Below are positions 1,739 through 12,021 of a DNA stretch of 64,000 bases, piece after piece (the stretch's first letter is position 1; the number at the start of each line of letters is the position of its first letter). The stretch is from an uncultured Hyphomicrobiales bacterium (lineage in GTDB: Bacteria; Pseudomonadota; Alphaproteobacteria; Rhizobiales; Devosiaceae): positions 43,196-107,195 of the forward strand of contig CAIKKY010000031.1 in the NCBI GenBank assembly GCA_903828145.1. Reading direction: 5' to 3'. The translations under genes and the position numbers were made by a program. Under the pieces are notes generated by a model that was not told where the DNA came from, did no database searches, and was given only the letters and a program-made list of their open reading frames with translations.

Positions 1739-1827
1739 TGCCACCAGATGGTGGGTGCGACAGGGATTGAACCTGTGACCCCTACCGTGTGAAGGTAGTG
1801 CTCTCCCGCTGAGCTACGCACCCGACC
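1739..1827. repeat. Left copy of 89-bp direct repeat (att-like), containing a complete tRNA-Val
   Basis: tgccacca[g]atggtgggtgcg...cacccgacc; matches 7949-8037 with one mismatch. Confidence 0.85.
1749..1823 (-). tRNA. tRNA-Val(CAC), left copy
   Basis: Minus strand GGGTGCGTAGCTCAGCGGGAGAGCACTACCTTCACACGGTAGGGGTCACAGGTTCAATCCCTGTCGCACCCACCA; full cloverleaf, encoded CCA, anticodon CAC. Confidence 0.9.
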
Positions 1828-1912
1828 TTTTTGTTGGGTAGGAAAATCAACTGCTTAGCGCAGTGTATCCGAAGACGGATGTCGCTGCAAAGTACCCGCC
1901 TGACACAGTTGG

Positions 1913-1930
1913 TGTGACACGGTTGTGACA
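1913..1930. promoter_or_regulatory. Candidate integrase arm-type site (left)
   Basis: TGTGACACGGTTGTGACA; 17/18 match to 7893-7910, each just inside one end of the element. Confidence 0.5.
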
Positions 1931-2124
1931 AGGTGGCATATCGGCGTGCAAGTGGGAGTTCAGCGCAAAGGGGGGTACATGGACCGGCAAAGGCACTGCC
2001 CCCCGTATAGCTGGCAATAGCTTTCACCCTAAGATCACCCACTATTTTTAAGTATTATCACGCATTTCTTGACTTACAAAATGTCGCGGGAACAACTCGC
2101 CTAGTTTACAATTCTAATTCTCAT

Positions 2125-2916
2125 TTATCCGGGCCATCGATCATCAACCTTAAGATCACCATCGCAATGCGCATACTCTGCAAACTGGCCCGTTTGGACA
2201 CCCCTGCATACCCAAACATAGTTCCCCTGATTGTCAAATCCGTCCCAGTCCCAGTCCACATCTACAGTTTCGGTATTTAAAATTGGCAGGGCGTCTATCG
2301 CCTCGTCAATAGTCATCACTTCGCCATAAGGCTTAAGGCAAATGCTGGCCCAATTACTGTCCTTCAAACCTGCAAGACATATTGCCTCTCCTAGGCTGAT
2401 CCCAAATGGCCTGCCGCAAATTATTGACCAACGGGCCCCAGTTGCTCCGCGACAAATGCCCTGAGCCAACGGCAAGTGCTCTCCAAAAGTGCGACATACG
2501 CCGACGACGTCTCCACCAGTTAGGGCACGGCACACAGCGTCACCCAAGCTGTATCGCATGGGTATTCCAAAGCTGAGAACATCACAGGCATCTGCGTTGA
2601 CATCTCCAACGCCAGCAGCACAAACGCCCTCTTCAAAGCTTATGGCCTTATCAATACCGGGCAACAACGATCTATGTTTGCATCGCGCGGCGTCTTTATT
2701 CCACACGACGCAAAATGCAAAGCCCGCCGCTTGGGAAACCGCATATGTATTATTATCGTACACATTCTCTTTGATCAGGAGATTTATTATCGAGTCCAGC
2801 AATGGGGACCCTGTTGTTCTCTGCTGCGCAAGAGACGGACCTGTCAGTGTCAAGGATATGAGGAAAAAAAGTGCGAAGAGGTGACCAAAATATAATCGGC
2901 GTGAGCATATTCTCAT
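2125..2916 (-). CDS. Predicted exported protein with tandem two-Cys repeats
   Basis: 263 aa; N-terminal signal MRICSRRLYFGHLFALFFLISLTLTGPSLAQ; repeated modules such as ISFEEGVCAAGVGDVNADAC, YSLGDAVCRALTGGDVVGVC, LPLAQGICRGATGARWSIIC, ISLGEAICLAGLKDSNWASIC. Confidence 0.75.
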   Translation of the reverse strand: MRICSRRLYFGHLFALFFLISLTLTGPSLAQQRTTGSPLLDSIINLLIKENVYDNNTYAVSQAAGFAFCVVWNKDAARCKHRSLLPGIDKAISFEEGVCAAGVGDVNADACDVLSFGIPMRYSLGDAVCRALTGGDVVGVCRTFGEHLPLAQGICRGATGARWSIICGRPFGISLGEAICLAGLKDSNWASICLKPYGEVMTIDEAIDALPILNTETVDVDWDWDGFDNQGNYVWVCRGVQTGQFAEYAHCDGDLKVDDRWPG

Positions 2917-3118
2917 GATTAAGCAGCCCCCCCTAAACTAGCACCTAAAATCGAACTACGAAGTCAGAGATTACATCTCTCCGCAGGGCTTTAGGCTAGC
3001 AGCTTGAATGAAGCGGTCAACTCGATTCAGCTAAGAGAAAGCCTAGGTCATTGTGCGCGTCACAGTTCCGGAGGGCTGTAGAATGCCGTACTGGCCTACC
3101 TATATGCGGTTGGCCCCA

Positions 3119-3454
3119 TTAGGCCGTATTGCGCCAGAGCCGACAACCTAAACCATGATGTGACCAGTCCCTAACTCTGTCCCATCCCAAACGTCTCAAT
3201 GCAGAACCTACATCCTTCGCGTGCGGATGTGTTCGGTATTTCCCTTGTAGCCTGAGCACCAGTTCCTCCATAGACCAGTGGCGGTCCCTCTGCGCAGGGG
3301 GGAGCGAGCGCATCAATTCCTCGATCTGCTGGTCGAGGGGTTTGTAGGGTGGCGCTGCACTCTGACTTGCCTTGCGTTGGCGCTGCTCCTCCTCCGCACG
3401 GAGGCTCGCTTCCCTGATTTGCCGTAGCTGTTCTCGGTAATGTCGTAGGTACAT
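3119..3454 (-). CDS. Hypothetical protein, possible C-terminal winged-helix
   Basis: 111 aa; charged N-terminal helix then DRHWSMEELVLRLQGKYRTHPHAKDVGSALRRLGWDRVRDWSHHGLGCRLW, wHTH-like. Confidence 0.55.
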   Translation of the reverse strand: MYLRHYREQLRQIREASLRAEEEQRQRKASQSAAPPYKPLDQQIEELMRSLPPAQRDRHWSMEELVLRLQGKYRTHPHAKDVGSALRRLGWDRVRDWSHHGLGCRLWRNTA

Positions 3455-3485
3455 GGCTTCTCACTGGTGGTGGTCGAGGGCGTCT

Positions 3486-3585
3486 GCGCACTTTGCGCAC
3501 TTTTCAGGCTTTTTCAGAAAATTTTCTATAGACGAATATAATAGAAAATTTTCCTCAAAACAGCTGAAAAGTGCGCAAAGTGCGC
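3486..3585. repeat. 100-bp interrupted palindrome with four AAAGTGCGC iterons around an AT-rich core
   Basis: Outer 22-bp arms GCGCACTTTGCGCACTTTTCAG (3486-3507) and CTGAAAAGTGCGCAAAGTGCGC (3564-3585) are perfect reverse complements; inner arms GAAAATTTTCTAT (3517-3529) and ATAGAAAATTTTC (3541-3553). Confidence 0.9.
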
Positions 3586-3597
3586 AGCACCCTTGTA

Positions 3598-6033
3598 TTA
3601 CGGCACGATTGGCGCTGCGGTAGATTGCAACGGTTGAAAGTCAATGTCTTTGTAGTGACGGCGACCCAGATCAAGTTCAATATTCCGTTCAGCGAGACGT
3701 TTTGTGAATTTTGCTTGCGAAACAGGATGATGTCCAGTGTCAGTGCAGTAGTTATAGTATGAAGTGTATACCTTCCCCTTTTCGATCGTATTACCATACG
3801 CGTTTATCATGTGTTGACTGAACCAATCACCAATAATGTCCTCTGCGGTTTTATAGTCCAAAACTGCATCTGATATGCTCTGAGGAATTAGCAGGCCATT
3901 GAGGCGATAGTCTTTTAGACCTTCCAGCGCCCAGTTCAGCACCCCAGTCCCCTCTTTCTGCAACTTGGCTGCTAGGTTCGGATCACGCTGAGCCTCAGGC
4001 ACCACATGTGTAAATGGGATCAGGAGCATACGACGCCACATACCGTCGGACATGTCGCGAATTTCAGGCTTGTGATTACCCACCATCACGAAGTTGAACT
4101 GCGGCTGGAAATTGAAGGGTTTCCCGTACAACGGGCGCGCTTGAATTGTATCTCCGCCGGTTAGGTCCTTAACTAAGGCAGAGTTCATTTTGCCGTTTTC
4201 CGGCAACTCATTGCAGTACACCAAGCGCATCCCCTTAAGGACTGCCAACTCAGGGGTCGCTCCAGTTCCCGCCCTCAGCCCCTCCATGATCAGGTCGGTT
4301 GAGACCTTGTGTGCATAGTCACCGAGAAGCCATTTCATCAGCTCGATGAAGGTCGATTTGCCATTTGCTCCGGCCCCGTAGAGGAAGATGAGTTTCTGGA
4401 TTTCGGGCTTTCCAAACAAAAAGAGCCCCGCGAGCTGCTGAAGCAGCCGCTGCACATCTTTATCGGGCTGCACTGTATCCAAGAACTGCTGGAATATGGG
4501 GTAAGCAGCTGTCGCGTCGAAATGAACGGCCAAGCGCTTGCTGATTAGCAGACTAGGATCGGGGGCAAGAAGCGTTTGACGTCCTAGATCAAGGACCCCA
4601 TTCCCCACGCCCACCAGATGCGGGTCGACATTGAACTCGGCGATGCTGGCGCTCATTTCGGACTGTGCAAAGCCCAATTCGGCCATAGCCTTCATGCGGG
4701 CCAACGTGCTGCCCTCCGTAGCCACTTTAAGAAGGCGCGCCCCTTCCTTGGGGTCGCCTAAACTGAACGCCGCGCGCGCATCTGCCTTGATCGCTTCAAG
4801 TGCTTCCTGCGCCAAGATCAACTCTCTGGTCGGCTGGCAGATGTTCCAGCCCGAAGTGGCCGAGAACTCCAAGACGTCGCCGGTTTCGTAAATGCGAATG
4901 AACCTGTCGCGGTAAAGCTGCGCGAACTTCTGGCCCCGCAGCACATCATGGTCACCCTGCGAAAGATCAAAAGGACCAATAACTGAGGGGCTGAGCCGAT
5001 AACCATTTACCTGCGCAATATGGAACAAAGTTCCTAAAGTGACGCCGCCATCAGCCTGAAGGCTGCTCCAAGTGGTGTCAAAGACCATTGGATCGTACTT
5101 CGAAGCGGTAGGGTTGGCAGGATCGCCGCCTGCGCTCCAATTACGTGCAACGGTTTCCGCACACAACCAACCCGTCCAATGCACAGCGGCCAGCATCTGG
5201 AACCAAACGGGGTAGTCACAGTCGGGGTCGATATGGCCCAAGGCATCCACAACCCTGTCAACCTCGCCCTGCGCTTCAATAGGCGGTGCATTAGGCGCAA
5301 TCGCCAGTGGAACCCTAGAAATCGTAGTTTTGGGAGCGCGCCCCGCGTATACGCCCCCCGTTGCACTCGCCCGCGTCAGCGCACTCTCAAACACGCCGAA
5401 ATCCAAAGGCAGGCAGCTGTTGGAGGCCATGACAATCGGCGAGTCATACTGAGGTTTCCGGTTAGTGGTTCCGACCGGCCGCAGGACGCTTGAAATGTCG
5501 CCGTTGCGGGCAGGATCAGCCAACAACTCAGTGCCGGACGTAGCGACTAACTGCCTCATGATCGCGGCGACGCGCAGATAATCGTCCTTCGGCACATCCT
5601 CAGAGAACGGCCAGTAGCAGTGCAGACCACCGCCGGATCGGATAATCAACGGAATGGGCAGACCGACCTTGCCGCAGAAGCACCGCAGCGCAGCCTCAGC
5701 ATCTCCCTCGTTTGCGTACCCCTTGCCCTGAGCGGCTTTGTCAGCGCCGCAGTCGATGTCCAGCCAATAACTCCGGACATGCCCGGCGTTTTCTTTCGTA
5801 CGCTGCTTCAACTCCCCCTTTTCGTTCGCGTAGCTCGGCTGCAAATAGGAGGCACATGCGTGGTACACGTTGAAGCCCATACCATCGTGGGCGCGAACCA
5901 CCTCTGTCAACTCGTCAAGGGAGTTACAGGGGACGTTGATTTTTGCGACCCCCTTCATGAGGAAGGCAAAATAGGTGCCGCCCGATGGGAGGATAAGGGC
6001 CAAGAAATCCTCGAGGGTCAGGGTGTCGCTCAT
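3598..6033 (-). CDS. P4-family phage/satellite primase-helicase (D5/DUF5906-type C-terminal helicase)
   Basis: 811 aa from the ATG (the ORF track uses an upstream TTG at 6036); Walker A IFLYGAGANGKSTFIELMKWLLG; PriCT-like DALGHIDPDCDYPVWFQMLAAVHWTGW; TDTGHHPVSQAKFTKRL C-terminus. Confidence 0.88.
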   Translation of the reverse strand: MSDTLTLEDFLALILPSGGTYFAFLMKGVAKINVPCNSLDELTEVVRAHDGMGFNVYHACASYLQPSYANEKGELKQRTKENAGHVRSYWLDIDCGADKAAQGKGYANEGDAEAALRCFCGKVGLPIPLIIRSGGGLHCYWPFSEDVPKDDYLRVAAIMRQLVATSGTELLADPARNGDISSVLRPVGTTNRKPQYDSPIVMASNSCLPLDFGVFESALTRASATGGVYAGRAPKTTISRVPLAIAPNAPPIEAQGEVDRVVDALGHIDPDCDYPVWFQMLAAVHWTGWLCAETVARNWSAGGDPANPTASKYDPMVFDTTWSSLQADGGVTLGTLFHIAQVNGYRLSPSVIGPFDLSQGDHDVLRGQKFAQLYRDRFIRIYETGDVLEFSATSGWNICQPTRELILAQEALEAIKADARAAFSLGDPKEGARLLKVATEGSTLARMKAMAELGFAQSEMSASIAEFNVDPHLVGVGNGVLDLGRQTLLAPDPSLLISKRLAVHFDATAAYPIFQQFLDTVQPDKDVQRLLQQLAGLFLFGKPEIQKLIFLYGAGANGKSTFIELMKWLLGDYAHKVSTDLIMEGLRAGTGATPELAVLKGMRLVYCNELPENGKMNSALVKDLTGGDTIQARPLYGKPFNFQPQFNFVMVGNHKPEIRDMSDGMWRRMLLIPFTHVVPEAQRDPNLAAKLQKEGTGVLNWALEGLKDYRLNGLLIPQSISDAVLDYKTAEDIIGDWFSQHMINAYGNTIEKGKVYTSYYNYCTDTGHHPVSQAKFTKRLAERNIELDLGRRHYKDIDFQPLQSTAAPIVP

Positions 6034-6257
6034 CAAAACTCCTCCCCACCAGTCGCAGCGCCTTCAACCTGCTTCTGAGCAAGCCAATCGGCGACCTGCT
6101 CACTGCTCCAGGCGGTGACGGCTTGCGACAGCCGGATAGGAGCCGGGAAGTCCCCCCGAGCGACCCAGCGGTAAAGCGTGCTGGAACTGATGGAGAGGAG
6201 GGACGTAAGGTCCCGCTCGCGAAGAAACGCGCTCTTGCGCAGAATTTCAGGAAGCAT
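6033..6257 (-). CDS. AlpA-family DNA-binding regulator / excisionase-like
   Basis: 74 aa; FLRERDLTSLLSISSSTLYRWVARGDFPAPIRLSQAVTAWSSEQVADWLAQK; TGA overlaps the primase ATG. Confidence 0.85.
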   Translation of the reverse strand: MLPEILRKSAFLRERDLTSLLSISSSTLYRWVARGDFPAPIRLSQAVTAWSSEQVADWLAQKQVEGAATGGEEF

Positions 6258-6333
6258 TTGCCGCCCTCATGATTAAACATGAAGGTTCTACGGACTGTAG
6301 GTAGCCGGCGCATTGGCATGAAATGCACGAAAA

Positions 6334-6861
6334 TTAGGAAAGGTGCTTTCCAGCAGTTCGAGCCTGTTGCCGCAGGCTCTGAGCATGTTGCACGCCCATC
6401 GAGGCATAAGCCCTTCGAGTGACCCGCTCCAAGATCGGCGGCCTACCACCATTCTTGGTGTAGTCCTCCCAATACCCGTTGATTTGCTCAATAAGCCTAG
6501 CTGCCTCCATCGAATCCCCGTCCGCGAGAATATCGGCAAACTGGGCGAGCAGCTTTGCATCTTGAAGTTCAGGCCGTCTGCCTTTGCTGCCCGGTTTCCG
6601 ATTGGCGCTTTTCCGGAGGTTGGACAAGACTGAATTCCCCATAGCCGCTACGGCCAGCTTGCGTGCGACGTCGGCGGACAAGGAGGGCTCTTCGTCCTGC
6701 AAAGCGGCCTCAACTAACTGTACCTGACTGAAGTCAACCTCTACCTCAAACCACGTGCCGGGCTCGGCCTTGGTGCGCGGGCGACCGCGACCGCGTTTCT
6801 GTGTGACTGGCTGCACAGCAACCCTCGCTGCTTCAGATTTCCACTTTGCAGCCAGTCTCAT
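6334..6861 (-). CDS. Hypothetical protein with AT-hook-like N-terminus
   Basis: 175 aa; QKRGRGRPRTKAEPG contains an RGRP core; no other domain recognised. Confidence 0.6.
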   Translation of the reverse strand: MRLAAKWKSEAARVAVQPVTQKRGRGRPRTKAEPGTWFEVEVDFSQVQLVEAALQDEEPSLSADVARKLAVAAMGNSVLSNLRKSANRKPGSKGRRPELQDAKLLAQFADILADGDSMEAARLIEQINGYWEDYTKNGGRPPILERVTRRAYASMGVQHAQSLRQQARTAGKHLS

Positions 6862-6894
6862 GTCTCACACTGAGGTGTGAACTCCCCCAAACGG

Positions 6895-7878
6895 CTAGGC
6901 CCCAAGCTTCGCAGCCAACTCCTCAACCTTGGCATGCGCATAGCGCAGCAACATGCGGGCATCCCTATGCCCGGAGATTGACCCCACCTCAGGCATCGTC
7001 AGTCCCATCTCAAAGAACCGGCTGATGGCTTCGTGTCGCAGATCGTGAAAGTGCAGGTCATCTATCCCCGCTTTGCGGGTCACTCTTTCCCACGCAAGTC
7101 GGAGTGCATTGGCTGACAGCGGGAACACCCGACCGGACGCAGCCAGTCTCGCGCTGAGCAGCCACTTTGCTCTTGCCGTTAAGGGGATCGTGCGGGGGTG
7201 GCCCGTCTTGGTCTCAGGTATGAGCAACAGCCCCTTGTCGAGCTGCAGATGCTCCCAGCGCATGGCGAGGATTTCGCCGCGCCTCATGCCAGTCTCGACC
7301 GCGAACTCGATTATGGCTGCAAGGTGCGGGGTCTGGCACGCAACTGCCACTCGCATGAGGCGCTCAAACTCTCCCGGCTTCAGCCGTCGCTCGCGCCGCT
7401 GGTCGGCTCCCTTCACCTTCACTTTGGCGAGCGGGTTCTCGGGCAGGGGTATGCCCCATTCATCAATGGCGACATTGAACATGTGCCGGATGGGATTGAG
7501 CTGACGGCGCACAGTGGCCGCAGCCACCTCTTCCAGTCTCTCGTCCCGGTAGCGGACGAAGTCCGCCATCTTCAGTGCGAAAAGGCTCTTGTTGCAGATC
7601 GCATGCCGAGCGAAGGCATCCAGCACGATGGTCTCAACCTGTGCGCTCTTCTTCTTGGCAACTATCTCGTCCCGGTAGCGGCGCACCAGCTCGCCAAGCG
7701 TCAGCTTCTTCAGTGCACTCCTATCTGCACCAAGCCCCTCGCGGTCAGCAGCCACTTCGGAGCTGCGTGCCCATTCCTGGGCATCCTTCAATCTAATGAA
7801 TGTGCGTGACACGCTTCGCTGCCCAAGCCGTCTGACTTGGACCTGCCACTTCTCACCACGCTTGCGTATTGCGGCCAT
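6895..7878 (-). CDS. int: Tyrosine-type site-specific integrase
   Basis: 327 aa; ETGMRRGEILAMRWEHL, LHFHDLRHEAISRFFEMG, SGHRDARMLLRYAHAK catalytic R/HxxR/H/Y motifs. Confidence 0.93.
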   Translation of the reverse strand: MAAIRKRGEKWQVQVRRLGQRSVSRTFIRLKDAQEWARSSEVAADREGLGADRSALKKLTLGELVRRYRDEIVAKKKSAQVETIVLDAFARHAICNKSLFALKMADFVRYRDERLEEVAAATVRRQLNPIRHMFNVAIDEWGIPLPENPLAKVKVKGADQRRERRLKPGEFERLMRVAVACQTPHLAAIIEFAVETGMRRGEILAMRWEHLQLDKGLLLIPETKTGHPRTIPLTARAKWLLSARLAASGRVFPLSANALRLAWERVTRKAGIDDLHFHDLRHEAISRFFEMGLTMPEVGSISGHRDARMLLRYAHAKVEELAAKLGA

Positions 7879-7892
7879 TGCCGGTCCCTCGC

Positions 7893-7910
7893 TGTGACAC
7901 AGTTGTGACA
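7893..7910. promoter_or_regulatory. Candidate integrase arm-type site (right)
   Basis: TGTGACACAGTTGTGACA between the int start and the right repeat. Confidence 0.5.
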
Positions 7911-7948
7911 GCTGAGTTTCCTAAACCACGCCGGAACGGCTAAGTCCT

Positions 7949-8037
7949 TGCCACCAAATGGTGGGTGCGACAGGGATTGAACCTGTGACCCCTACCGTGT
8001 GAAGGTAGTGCTCTCCCGCTGAGCTACGCACCCGACC
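7949..8037. repeat. Right copy of 89-bp direct repeat (att-like)
   Basis: 88/89 identity with 1739-1827. Confidence 0.85.
7959..8033 (-). tRNA. tRNA-Val(CAC), right copy
   Basis: Sequence identical to the tRNA at 1749-1823. Confidence 0.92.
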
Positions 8038-8082: not shown

Positions 8083-8157
8083 TGGTGGGTGTAACAGGGA
8101 TTGAACCTGTGACCCCTACCATGTCAAGGTAGTGCTCTCCCGCTGAGCTATACACCC
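8083..8157 (-). tRNA. tRNA-Val(GAC)
   Basis: GGGTGTATAGCTCAGCGGGAGAGCACTACCTTGACATGGTAGGGGTCACAGGTTCAATCCCTGTTACACCCACCA. Confidence 0.93.
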
Positions 8158-10811: not shown

Positions 10812-11777
10812 TCAAGCGGATGGATTGGTCACGAAGGCATCGAAGGCGGCCATGACCTGGGCGCGGATCGGGTCTGATTCCTGAAACAGTTCGTGCTGGG
10901 CGCCGGGCACTACGATGTGGCGGCCCGTGCGCATTCTGAGGCCCAAAGCCTCGATAGCCGGGGACGACACCACGCGGTCGCGGGCAGCGACAAGCATCAG
11001 GACGGGAATCTTGATTTCGGTGGGAAAGGCATCGCCTGCGGCTTCGGCCATGGCGGTAAAAGCAGCGGCGGCCCAGCCATAGGTCGGCGCCAGGGTTTCA
11101 AGATCGGGGCGCGCGCGCAGGATATCGCCATTGCGGGTAAAGCGCAGGGCGTCGCCCGTCAGCGGGTTATCGGCAAAGGGCATCAGGCTTTGCGGCACGT
11201 CCTTGCGCGAGGCGCTGGCGTGGCCGAGCCCCAGCAGCGTGAGCGTCCGCCCGAAGCGGGCCATGCCGCGCGTTGAAAACGGCATGTGGTCGATGGCGAT
11301 CATCGGGGCCGAGAGGAAGACCCGATCAAACATCAGCCGATCGCGCTCAGCCGCCAGCAGCGAGACGAGCCCACCCGTCGAATGGCCCACGAGGTAGAAC
11401 GGCCCCGGGCAATCGGGCAGGAGCACATCGGCGTGGAAGCTTTTGAGGTCGCACCAGTAATCCTCAAAGCTCTTCACATGGCCGAGCTTTGAGGGCGTGA
11501 GGCGCTGGCTGCCGCCCTGGCCGCGCCAATCGAAGGTGGCGACGGCGAAGCCGCGCGCCAGAAAATCGCTGATGGTCTCGAAATATTTCTCAATGAACTC
11601 GGTGCGGCCGTGCACGAGGCAGATGGTGCCGCGCGTGCCGCCGCCCTTGGGCTTGAACACGGCGCTGCGCAGCCGCACCCCATCGGATGTGGTGAACCAG
11701 CCCGGGCGAACGCCCAGCGGCACCGGATTTCCGGCGATTTCACAAAACTCGGGCAGGGGCGGGGCTTTTGCATCCAT
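10812..11777 (-). CDS. Alpha/beta hydrolase, lysophospholipase-like
   Basis: GTICLVHGRTEFIEKYFETI, VATFDWRGQGGS, YLVGHSTGGLVSLL, VPGAQHELFQE; start set at internal Met. Confidence 0.82.
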   Translation of the reverse strand: MDAKAPPLPEFCEIAGNPVPLGVRPGWFTTSDGVRLRSAVFKPKGGGTRGTICLVHGRTEFIEKYFETISDFLARGFAVATFDWRGQGGSQRLTPSKLGHVKSFEDYWCDLKSFHADVLLPDCPGPFYLVGHSTGGLVSLLAAERDRLMFDRVFLSAPMIAIDHMPFSTRGMARFGRTLTLLGLGHASASRKDVPQSLMPFADNPLTGDALRFTRNGDILRARPDLETLAPTYGWAAAAFTAMAEAAGDAFPTEIKIPVLMLVAARDRVVSSPAIEALGLRMRTGRHIVVPGAQHELFQESDPIRAQVMAAFDAFVTNPSA

Positions 11778-11800
11778 GCCCTGTGCTAGCACGCCGATTT

Positions 11801-11850
11801 TAAACAAAAAAGAAAGCCAGCACATCCGGTGACGGATCGCGCTGGCTTTC
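11801..11850 (-). terminator. Orphan Rho-independent terminator (minus strand)
   Basis: GAAAGCCAGC(11812-11821)/GCTGGCTTTC(11841-11850) perfect 10-bp stem with nested ATCCG/CGGAT, followed on minus strand by TTTTTTGTTT. Confidence 0.75.
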
Positions 11851-12021
11851 ATGGACCATCCAGTTGGGGGGGGGCGGAAGGCTGGTGGCCCGGGACGTGC
11901 CCGCTGGGGAGCGGGTACAGCGCTGTTCATAGGCCCCAGGGCCTGAACCGCGATTGAGGGGCGCATTCAGTTTCGGTTCATCCGCTGGGAGGCCTTGAAC
12001 GGATCAAACGGACACCTAAAT

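Follow-up and report, generated by a model that had tools for sequence, protein, structure and literature searches.

Gene content and boundaries of the element

The analysed window, a stretch of 64,000 nucleotides from an uncultured Hyphomicrobiales bacterium, contains an integrated element of 6,210 bp (positions 1739-8037) located between two complete tRNA-Val(CAC) genes (Table 1). Its ends are direct repeats identical at 88 of 89 bases, each consisting of the whole tRNA-Val(CAC) gene with 4 bp on the 5' side and 10 bp on the 3' side, and not of a 3' fragment. Six genes are encoded between the repeats, all on the minus strand: an integrase, an AT-hook protein, AlpA, an AEP/SF3 primase-helicase, a winged-helix protein and a presumably secreted cysteine-rich protein. 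The GC content of 55.3% lies below that of 100 other 6.2-kb windows (mean 63.4%, s.d. 1.4, minimum 60.4%). The contiguous minus-strand gene set within 89-bp direct repeats and its low GC content relative to the flanks, both described in the initial annotation, are thereby confirmed, and its assignment of integrase, AT-hook-like protein and AlpA agrees with the scores and motif in Table 1.

Table 1. Features of the element and its attachment region (coordinates of the window)
Feature	Position	Strand	Remarks
att repeat, distal	1739..1827	-	contains complete tRNA-Val(CAC) 1749-1823 (ARAGORN)
Perfect IHF consensus AATCAACTGCTTA, distal arm	1845..1857	+	sequence match
Candidate integrase arm-type repeat TGTCACAACCGTGTCACA, distal	1913..1930	-	repeat search, twin comparison
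Cargo protein, 263 aa	2125..2916	-	N-terminal hydrophobic signal, 13 cysteines
Winged-helix protein, 111 aa	3119..3454	-	predicted fold; conserved in twin
Long inverted repeat, AT-rich centre	3484..3587		just after primase gene; candidate replication origin
Primase-helicase, 811 aa	3598..6033	-	PriCT_2, D5_N, SF3 helicase DUF5906
AlpA-type excisionase/regulator, 74 aa	6033..6257	-	PF05930 41.2 bits, cut-off 21; phrog_66
AT-hook-like protein, 175 aa	6334..6861	-	KRGRGRPRTK; directly after int
Tyrosine integrase, 327 aa	6895..7878	-	PF00589 96.6 bits, cut-off 27.1
Candidate integrase arm-type repeat TGTCACAACTGTGTCACA, proximal	7893..7910	-	repeat search, twin comparison
att repeat, integrase-proximal	7949..8037	-	contains complete tRNA-Val(CAC) 7959-8033 (ARAGORN)
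Host tRNA-Val(GAC)	8083..8157	-	conserved neighbour of target tRNA in genus (ARAGORN + congeners)

The integrase possesses the catalytic motifs TGMRRGEI, HDLRH, SGHRD and LRYAH. Profile searches against Pfam, PHROGs and NCBIfam gave no family match above cut-off for the 175-aa AT-hook-like protein, and a search of AlpA against phages found no relatives. The primase-helicase has an AEP-like N-terminus with the motif DIDCG and a helicase with the Walker A motif GANGKST; it matches DUF5906 with 47.5 bits (Pfam, cut-off 27.6), and its similarity to Pox_D5 is below cut-off (E 0.0017, 19.2 bits). Its earlier designation as P4-type holds for the SF3 helicase half, which matches TIGR01613 with 255.8 bits, but not for the primase half, which is AEP-like with a PriCT_2 domain. 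No close relatives of this protein are encoded in 328 genomes of the order. The 111-aa protein is predicted to adopt a winged-helix fold (mean pLDDT 76) and weakly resembles many winged-helix DNA-binding proteins (best E 0.02). The initial annotation was silent on this gene, on the inverted repeat following the primase gene and on the completeness of the tRNAs in the repeats. The 263-aa cargo is, judging by its N-terminal hydrophobic signal, a putative exported protein, the 13 cysteines of which are mostly paired with a spacing of about 10-14 residues. It had been considered undescribed, in agreement with the lack of a match in Pfam, PHROGs, NCBIfam, PADLOC, plasmids, phages and 398 genomes of the order; its structure prediction (pLDDT 37) was unusable.

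The tRNA-Val(GAC)-tRNA-Val(CAC) pair is uninterrupted in 15 congeners, which represents the empty site that the initial annotation had proposed to look for; the congeners thus lack the insert at this site, instead of carrying the genes in synteny without the repeats. Integrase matches elsewhere in the genus are confined to two members with 42% and 38% identity, so that within the genus a close integrase is found only in this genome. The element shows both characteristics of a tRNA-targeted integrative element, namely att repeats at its ends and a site that is uninterrupted in relatives. Because of the empty site in the 15 congeners and of a twin with the same architecture elsewhere in the genome (see below), the element is confirmed as a real insertion and is not a product of chance. 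The earlier description as an integrative element that has replication genes but no virion genes is supported, and the element looks intact. Descent by decay from a prophage or a larger island, for which the lower GC content of the cargo region and the non-coding stretch between cargo and distal end could be taken as signs, is highly improbable in view of catalytic motifs that are all intact, long open frames, almost identical att repeats and the similar size of the twin.

Attachment site, twin element and related integrases

The twin (contig C10, locus L016) has a size of 6.56 kb and is inserted at tRNA-Arg(CCG), with a complete tRNA gene at both ends. The integrases of the two elements are 95% identical at the amino acid level (18 of 327 aligned positions differ), the winged-helix gene is common to both (86% DNA identity; 88% amino acid identity over 107 residues), and the 164-bp distal ends share 81% DNA identity. 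The replication genes of the twin differ from those in the window and encode a 177-aa protein and a 551-aa AAA_25 protein, its cargo is an exported trypsin-like protease, and no AlpA was recognised among its genes. The elements cease to be similar about 18-20 bp short of the distal tRNA, and similarity is found again from about 37 bp past the proximal tRNA of the window; thus, the tRNA and its immediate flanks differ between the two as one block. In congeners, conservation at the target of the twin does not extend beyond tRNA-Arg itself, and this comparison does not confirm the insertion point. The pair suggests that such elements can change their target while keeping their integrase.

The inverted repeat next to the primase gene spans 42 bp and has a predicted folding energy of -48.9 kcal/mol (z -14.4). 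The twin carries another long inverted repeat of different sequence (z -6.2) just after its unrelated replication gene. Since differing inverted repeats are located at the same place behind unrelated replication genes, they are suggested to serve as replication origins.

Both ends of the element contain a complete tRNA-Val(CAC), and the excised circle should therefore carry a whole tRNA gene within attP, with arm sites for the integrase and an IHF site in its flanks; as a consequence, integration would leave two intact tRNA genes. Paired repeats such as TGTCACAAC-GTGTCACA occur at both element ends, and the arm-repeat motif is also found ahead of int in most relatives. The IHF consensus is likewise perfect in the twin, at nearly equal distance from the tRNA, and 300 shuffled-sequence trials yielded no perfect match. 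Arm repeats at both ends together with an IHF site would fit a lambda-like complex attP. A candidate promoter within the element, directed towards the distal tRNA (window TTGCAG-17-TACACT, twin TTGCAG-17-TAATCT), was rejected, as it matches at 8 of 12 positions only and the promoter scan was silent.

A survey of related integrases (38-100% identity) covered 31 loci, with L012 and L088 representing one place counted twice. The targets of 28 of these integrases are tRNA genes for Val, Arg, Thr, Asp, Gly and Ser and one protein gene (L091). Complete tRNAs at both ends are present in five loci, namely the window, the twin, L031, L038 and L092. In L087, L088 and L089, the proximal tRNA is complete and the distal copy is a 3' fragment of 60-69 bp, whereas a 5' tRNA fragment adjoins int in L028, L029 and L096; L033, L037 and L090 have the opposite orientation. 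The anticodon stem-loop, tRNA positions ~28-42, is contained in every resolved tRNA block and 5' fragment. These shared positions match the known class of crossovers at the anticodon loop (PMC4383910, PMC8371274).

The complete tRNA repeats could also have arisen later, when gene conversion extended an ordinary 3' fragment, and would then not be a feature of attP. The close relatives L087, L088 and L089 lend some credit to this explanation, because their distal fragments start in the D-arm, so that a short conversion patch would complete the tRNA. It is nevertheless unlikely, as five loci of the family are complete at both ends, three of them with distant integrases (43-45% identity), and as element sequence in both window and twin extends to within about 18-20 bp of the distal tRNA.

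On the integrase tree, at least 14 target changes are required among 28 rows, compared with a mean of 15.6 for shuffled labels, and 43 of 300 label shuffles need 14 changes or fewer; with 13 of 25 inner branches weakly supported, this count is a rough one. By this rough count, the target is nearly unlinked to integrase phylogeny among the 28 related integrases. It is conceivable, at the level of a tentative proposal, that the tRNA carried in attP and not the integrase mainly sets the target: the enzyme would recognise the stem geometry of the anticodon arm and the tRNA would be selected by base matching within the loop, so that a swap would re-aim the element at once while the host would always keep a working tRNA.

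Comparison with known mobile elements

The prototype of the phage-inducible chromosomal minimalist islands (PICMIs) is a 6,110-bp element from Vibrio chagasii (PMC10803314). The element in the window resembles PICMIs in its size, its six genes, its tyrosine integrase and the absence of capsid-remodelling genes. It also shares the gene order int, unknown gene, alpA, DUF5906-type primase, unknown gene, in which the 175-aa gene takes the position of the PICMI gene next to int, and integrase PF00589, AlpA PF05930 and primase DUF5906 (DUF3987 or DUF5906 being required) all score above cut-off. In contrast to PICMIs, the gene after int does not overlap with int, the cargo is unrelated to the known families, the repeat comprises 89 bp with a whole tRNA instead of 17 bp, the host belongs to the Hyphomicrobiales and not to Vibrio, and the target is tRNA-Val(CAC) and not fis. 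PICMIs occur at most once per genome; two related elements are present here, but no AlpA was recognised in the twin. Integration at fis was named as a hallmark by the authors of the PICMI study, who reported no complete PICMI outside Vibrio genomes (PMC10803314). The element thus looks like a PICMI in its anatomy but cannot be filed as one.

PICMIs are nevertheless a much closer match than P4 or PICIs. P4-like satellites are defined by five to seven of the components psu, delta, sid, epsilon, alpha, alpA and integrase (PMC8628076); searches that covered psu, delta, epsilon, alpha, alpA and integrase found two of the seven (integrase and AlpA) in the element, which falls outside this group, and no Pfam match to psu, delta or epsilon was obtained for its genes. 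It shares with P4 the integrase, AlpA and a replication protein with an SF3 helicase, but differs in its AEP-like primase half. With Gram-negative and helper-embedded PICIs (PMC10111431), it has in common an integration zone with integrase and AlpA and a replication zone, but no Bro-type or late/terminase zone was found: the six genes gave no match to a small terminase or to another late-zone gene (Pfam, PHROGs). Of the satellite hallmark modules named in the initial annotation, integrase, AlpA and the SF3 helicase half are confirmed. Furthermore, integrase clades of helper-embedded PICIs share one attB site (PMC10111431), whereas integrases with 95% identity use different tRNAs here.

Archaeal pT26-2 and SSV-type integrases have relatives at several different tRNA genes, and crossover at the anticodon loop is described for SSV1 (PMC8371274). 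Target switching itself is therefore not new; these systems differ in being archaeal and of other element types, and the available part of that report does not mention whole-tRNA duplication. An island in the sense of Islander consists of one complete tRNA and a displaced fragment, and matches inside a full-length tRNA gene are rejected (PMC4383910). The element does not conform to this definition since both of its tRNA copies are complete, and islands with two complete copies hence escape Islander. Literature queries for whole-tRNA attachment sites, with tycheposons outside the comparison, found nothing specific. Tycheposons are cargo elements with a tyrosine recombinase that are located at tRNA genes, and some of them are satellites; compared by description, they differ from the element in host lineage. 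Accordingly, no priority is claimed for the whole-tRNA attachment site.

Proposed mobilization and implications

The element is probably a minimal integrative element that looks complete, resembles PICMIs in gene content, has a tRNA-carrying attP and would be packaged by a helper. Crossover by the integrase would take place at the anticodon loop of the tRNA in the host, and the two strands of the stem would serve as core half-sites. Excision may be assisted by AlpA, and the circle would be replicated by the primase-helicase from the inverted repeat. Packaging by a helper phage is proposed in analogy to PICMIs, which depend on a virulent helper for excision, are packaged as concatemers and also lack capsid-remodelling genes (PMC10803314). 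If the carried tRNA were exchanged, the element might insert at another tRNA while its integrase changed little or not at all, a possibility that the twin suggests. The weakest step of this scheme concerns the exported cargo, which could be active at the envelope and perhaps counter competing phages.

Neither a small terminase nor a capsid-remodelling gene was detected in the element, and searches for PF03354 TerL and portal genes found no helper prophage in the genome, where a virulent helper would be invisible. PF03354 TerL is absent from this genome, and the one portal gene detected is part of a gene transfer agent cluster (TerL, portal, protease, capsid, tail genes, GTA_TIM; G000:C6, ~306-319 kb). 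With this cluster present, element DNA could be packaged by the cell's own gene transfer agent and acquired by recipients through recombination or integration. This is very improbable, since gene transfer agents package host DNA with no preference for this element and the capacity of the classical Rhodobacter particle is only ~4 kb, less than the 6.2-kb element; AlpA and primase would also be left unexplained.

The integrase relatives inspected are encoded in islands of 7-18 kb that carry restriction or other defence genes but no virion genes, and not in full-length prophages, a location that would have argued for a decayed remnant. Examples are the methyltransferase/Vsr/Mza-like island of L031, SIR2 with type I restriction in L092 and type IIG restriction in L087. 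These islands, together with the absence of a helper-hijacking gene, would be in line with a bare integrative element or defence-type island that would need no phage helper: after excision and a short phase of replication, it would spread via natural transformation, vesicles or generalized transduction. This scenario is less probable. AlpA and a DUF5906 primase next to int form a satellite set, and PICMIs also manage without capsid-remodelling genes. Moreover, none of the island relatives compared shares the AlpA of the window, the winged-helix gene is present only in the twin, and the sole primase relative among them, in L038, is distant.

Judged from its sequence, the element is real, intact-looking and PICMI-like in anatomy, with a whole-tRNA attachment site; this site and the twin, inserted at a different tRNA, deserve further attention. 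Because repeats made up of complete tRNA genes are discarded by at least one of the standard island finders, such elements may be under-counted. The two 95%-identical integrases at two tRNA genes of one genome form a natural pair with which the choice between enzyme and carried tRNA as the determinant of the target is directly testable. PICMI-like minimal elements, previously reported in complete form only from Vibrio, are extended by this element to the Hyphomicrobiales and to a tRNA site.

Related elements and their targets

The genome from which the window derives (G000) carries a twin of the window element on contig C10. The integrases of the two are 95% identical, whereas their replication genes differ, and the twin's cargo is an exported HtrA-like protease. 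The DNA methyltransferase-like gene next to the twin is perhaps part of another island at the same tRNA-Arg. Related integrases also occur in two larger islands, of which L031 encodes a methyltransferase, Vsr and MzaB/C/E-like proteins, and L092 combines type I restriction genes with one for a SIR2-domain protein. At L091, the target of a further relative appears to code for protein and may be a gene for dihydrolipoamide dehydrogenase. The gene transfer agent cluster of G000 encodes TerL, portal, protease, capsid and tail proteins and a GTA_TIM protein.

Coordinates of related elements and other loci
Feature	Position	Ends or context
Twin element	L016:6984-13639 (G000 contig C10, about 125984-132639)	two complete tRNA-Arg(CCG) genes
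DNA methyltransferase-like gene	L016:5148-6884	directly adjoins twin's tRNA-Arg
14.2-kb island	L031:1910-16211	complete tRNA-Val(CAC) at each end
17.8-kb island	L092:809-18684	complete tRNA-Arg(CCG) at each end
116-bp repeat	L091, oriented 702-817 and 11777-11892	locus of a relative of window integrase
Rhodobacter-type gene transfer agent cluster	L125 (G000:C6:301000-320900)	

Anticodon stem of the tRNA-Val(CAC) genes

Both tRNA-Val(CAC) genes of the window (1749-1823 and 7959-8033) have the anticodon stem CTACC/GGTAG, which is identical to that of the adjoining tRNA-Val(GAC), whereas most congeners have TCGCC/GGCGG in tRNA-Val(CAC). This stem may have arrived with the element or may stem from gene conversion.
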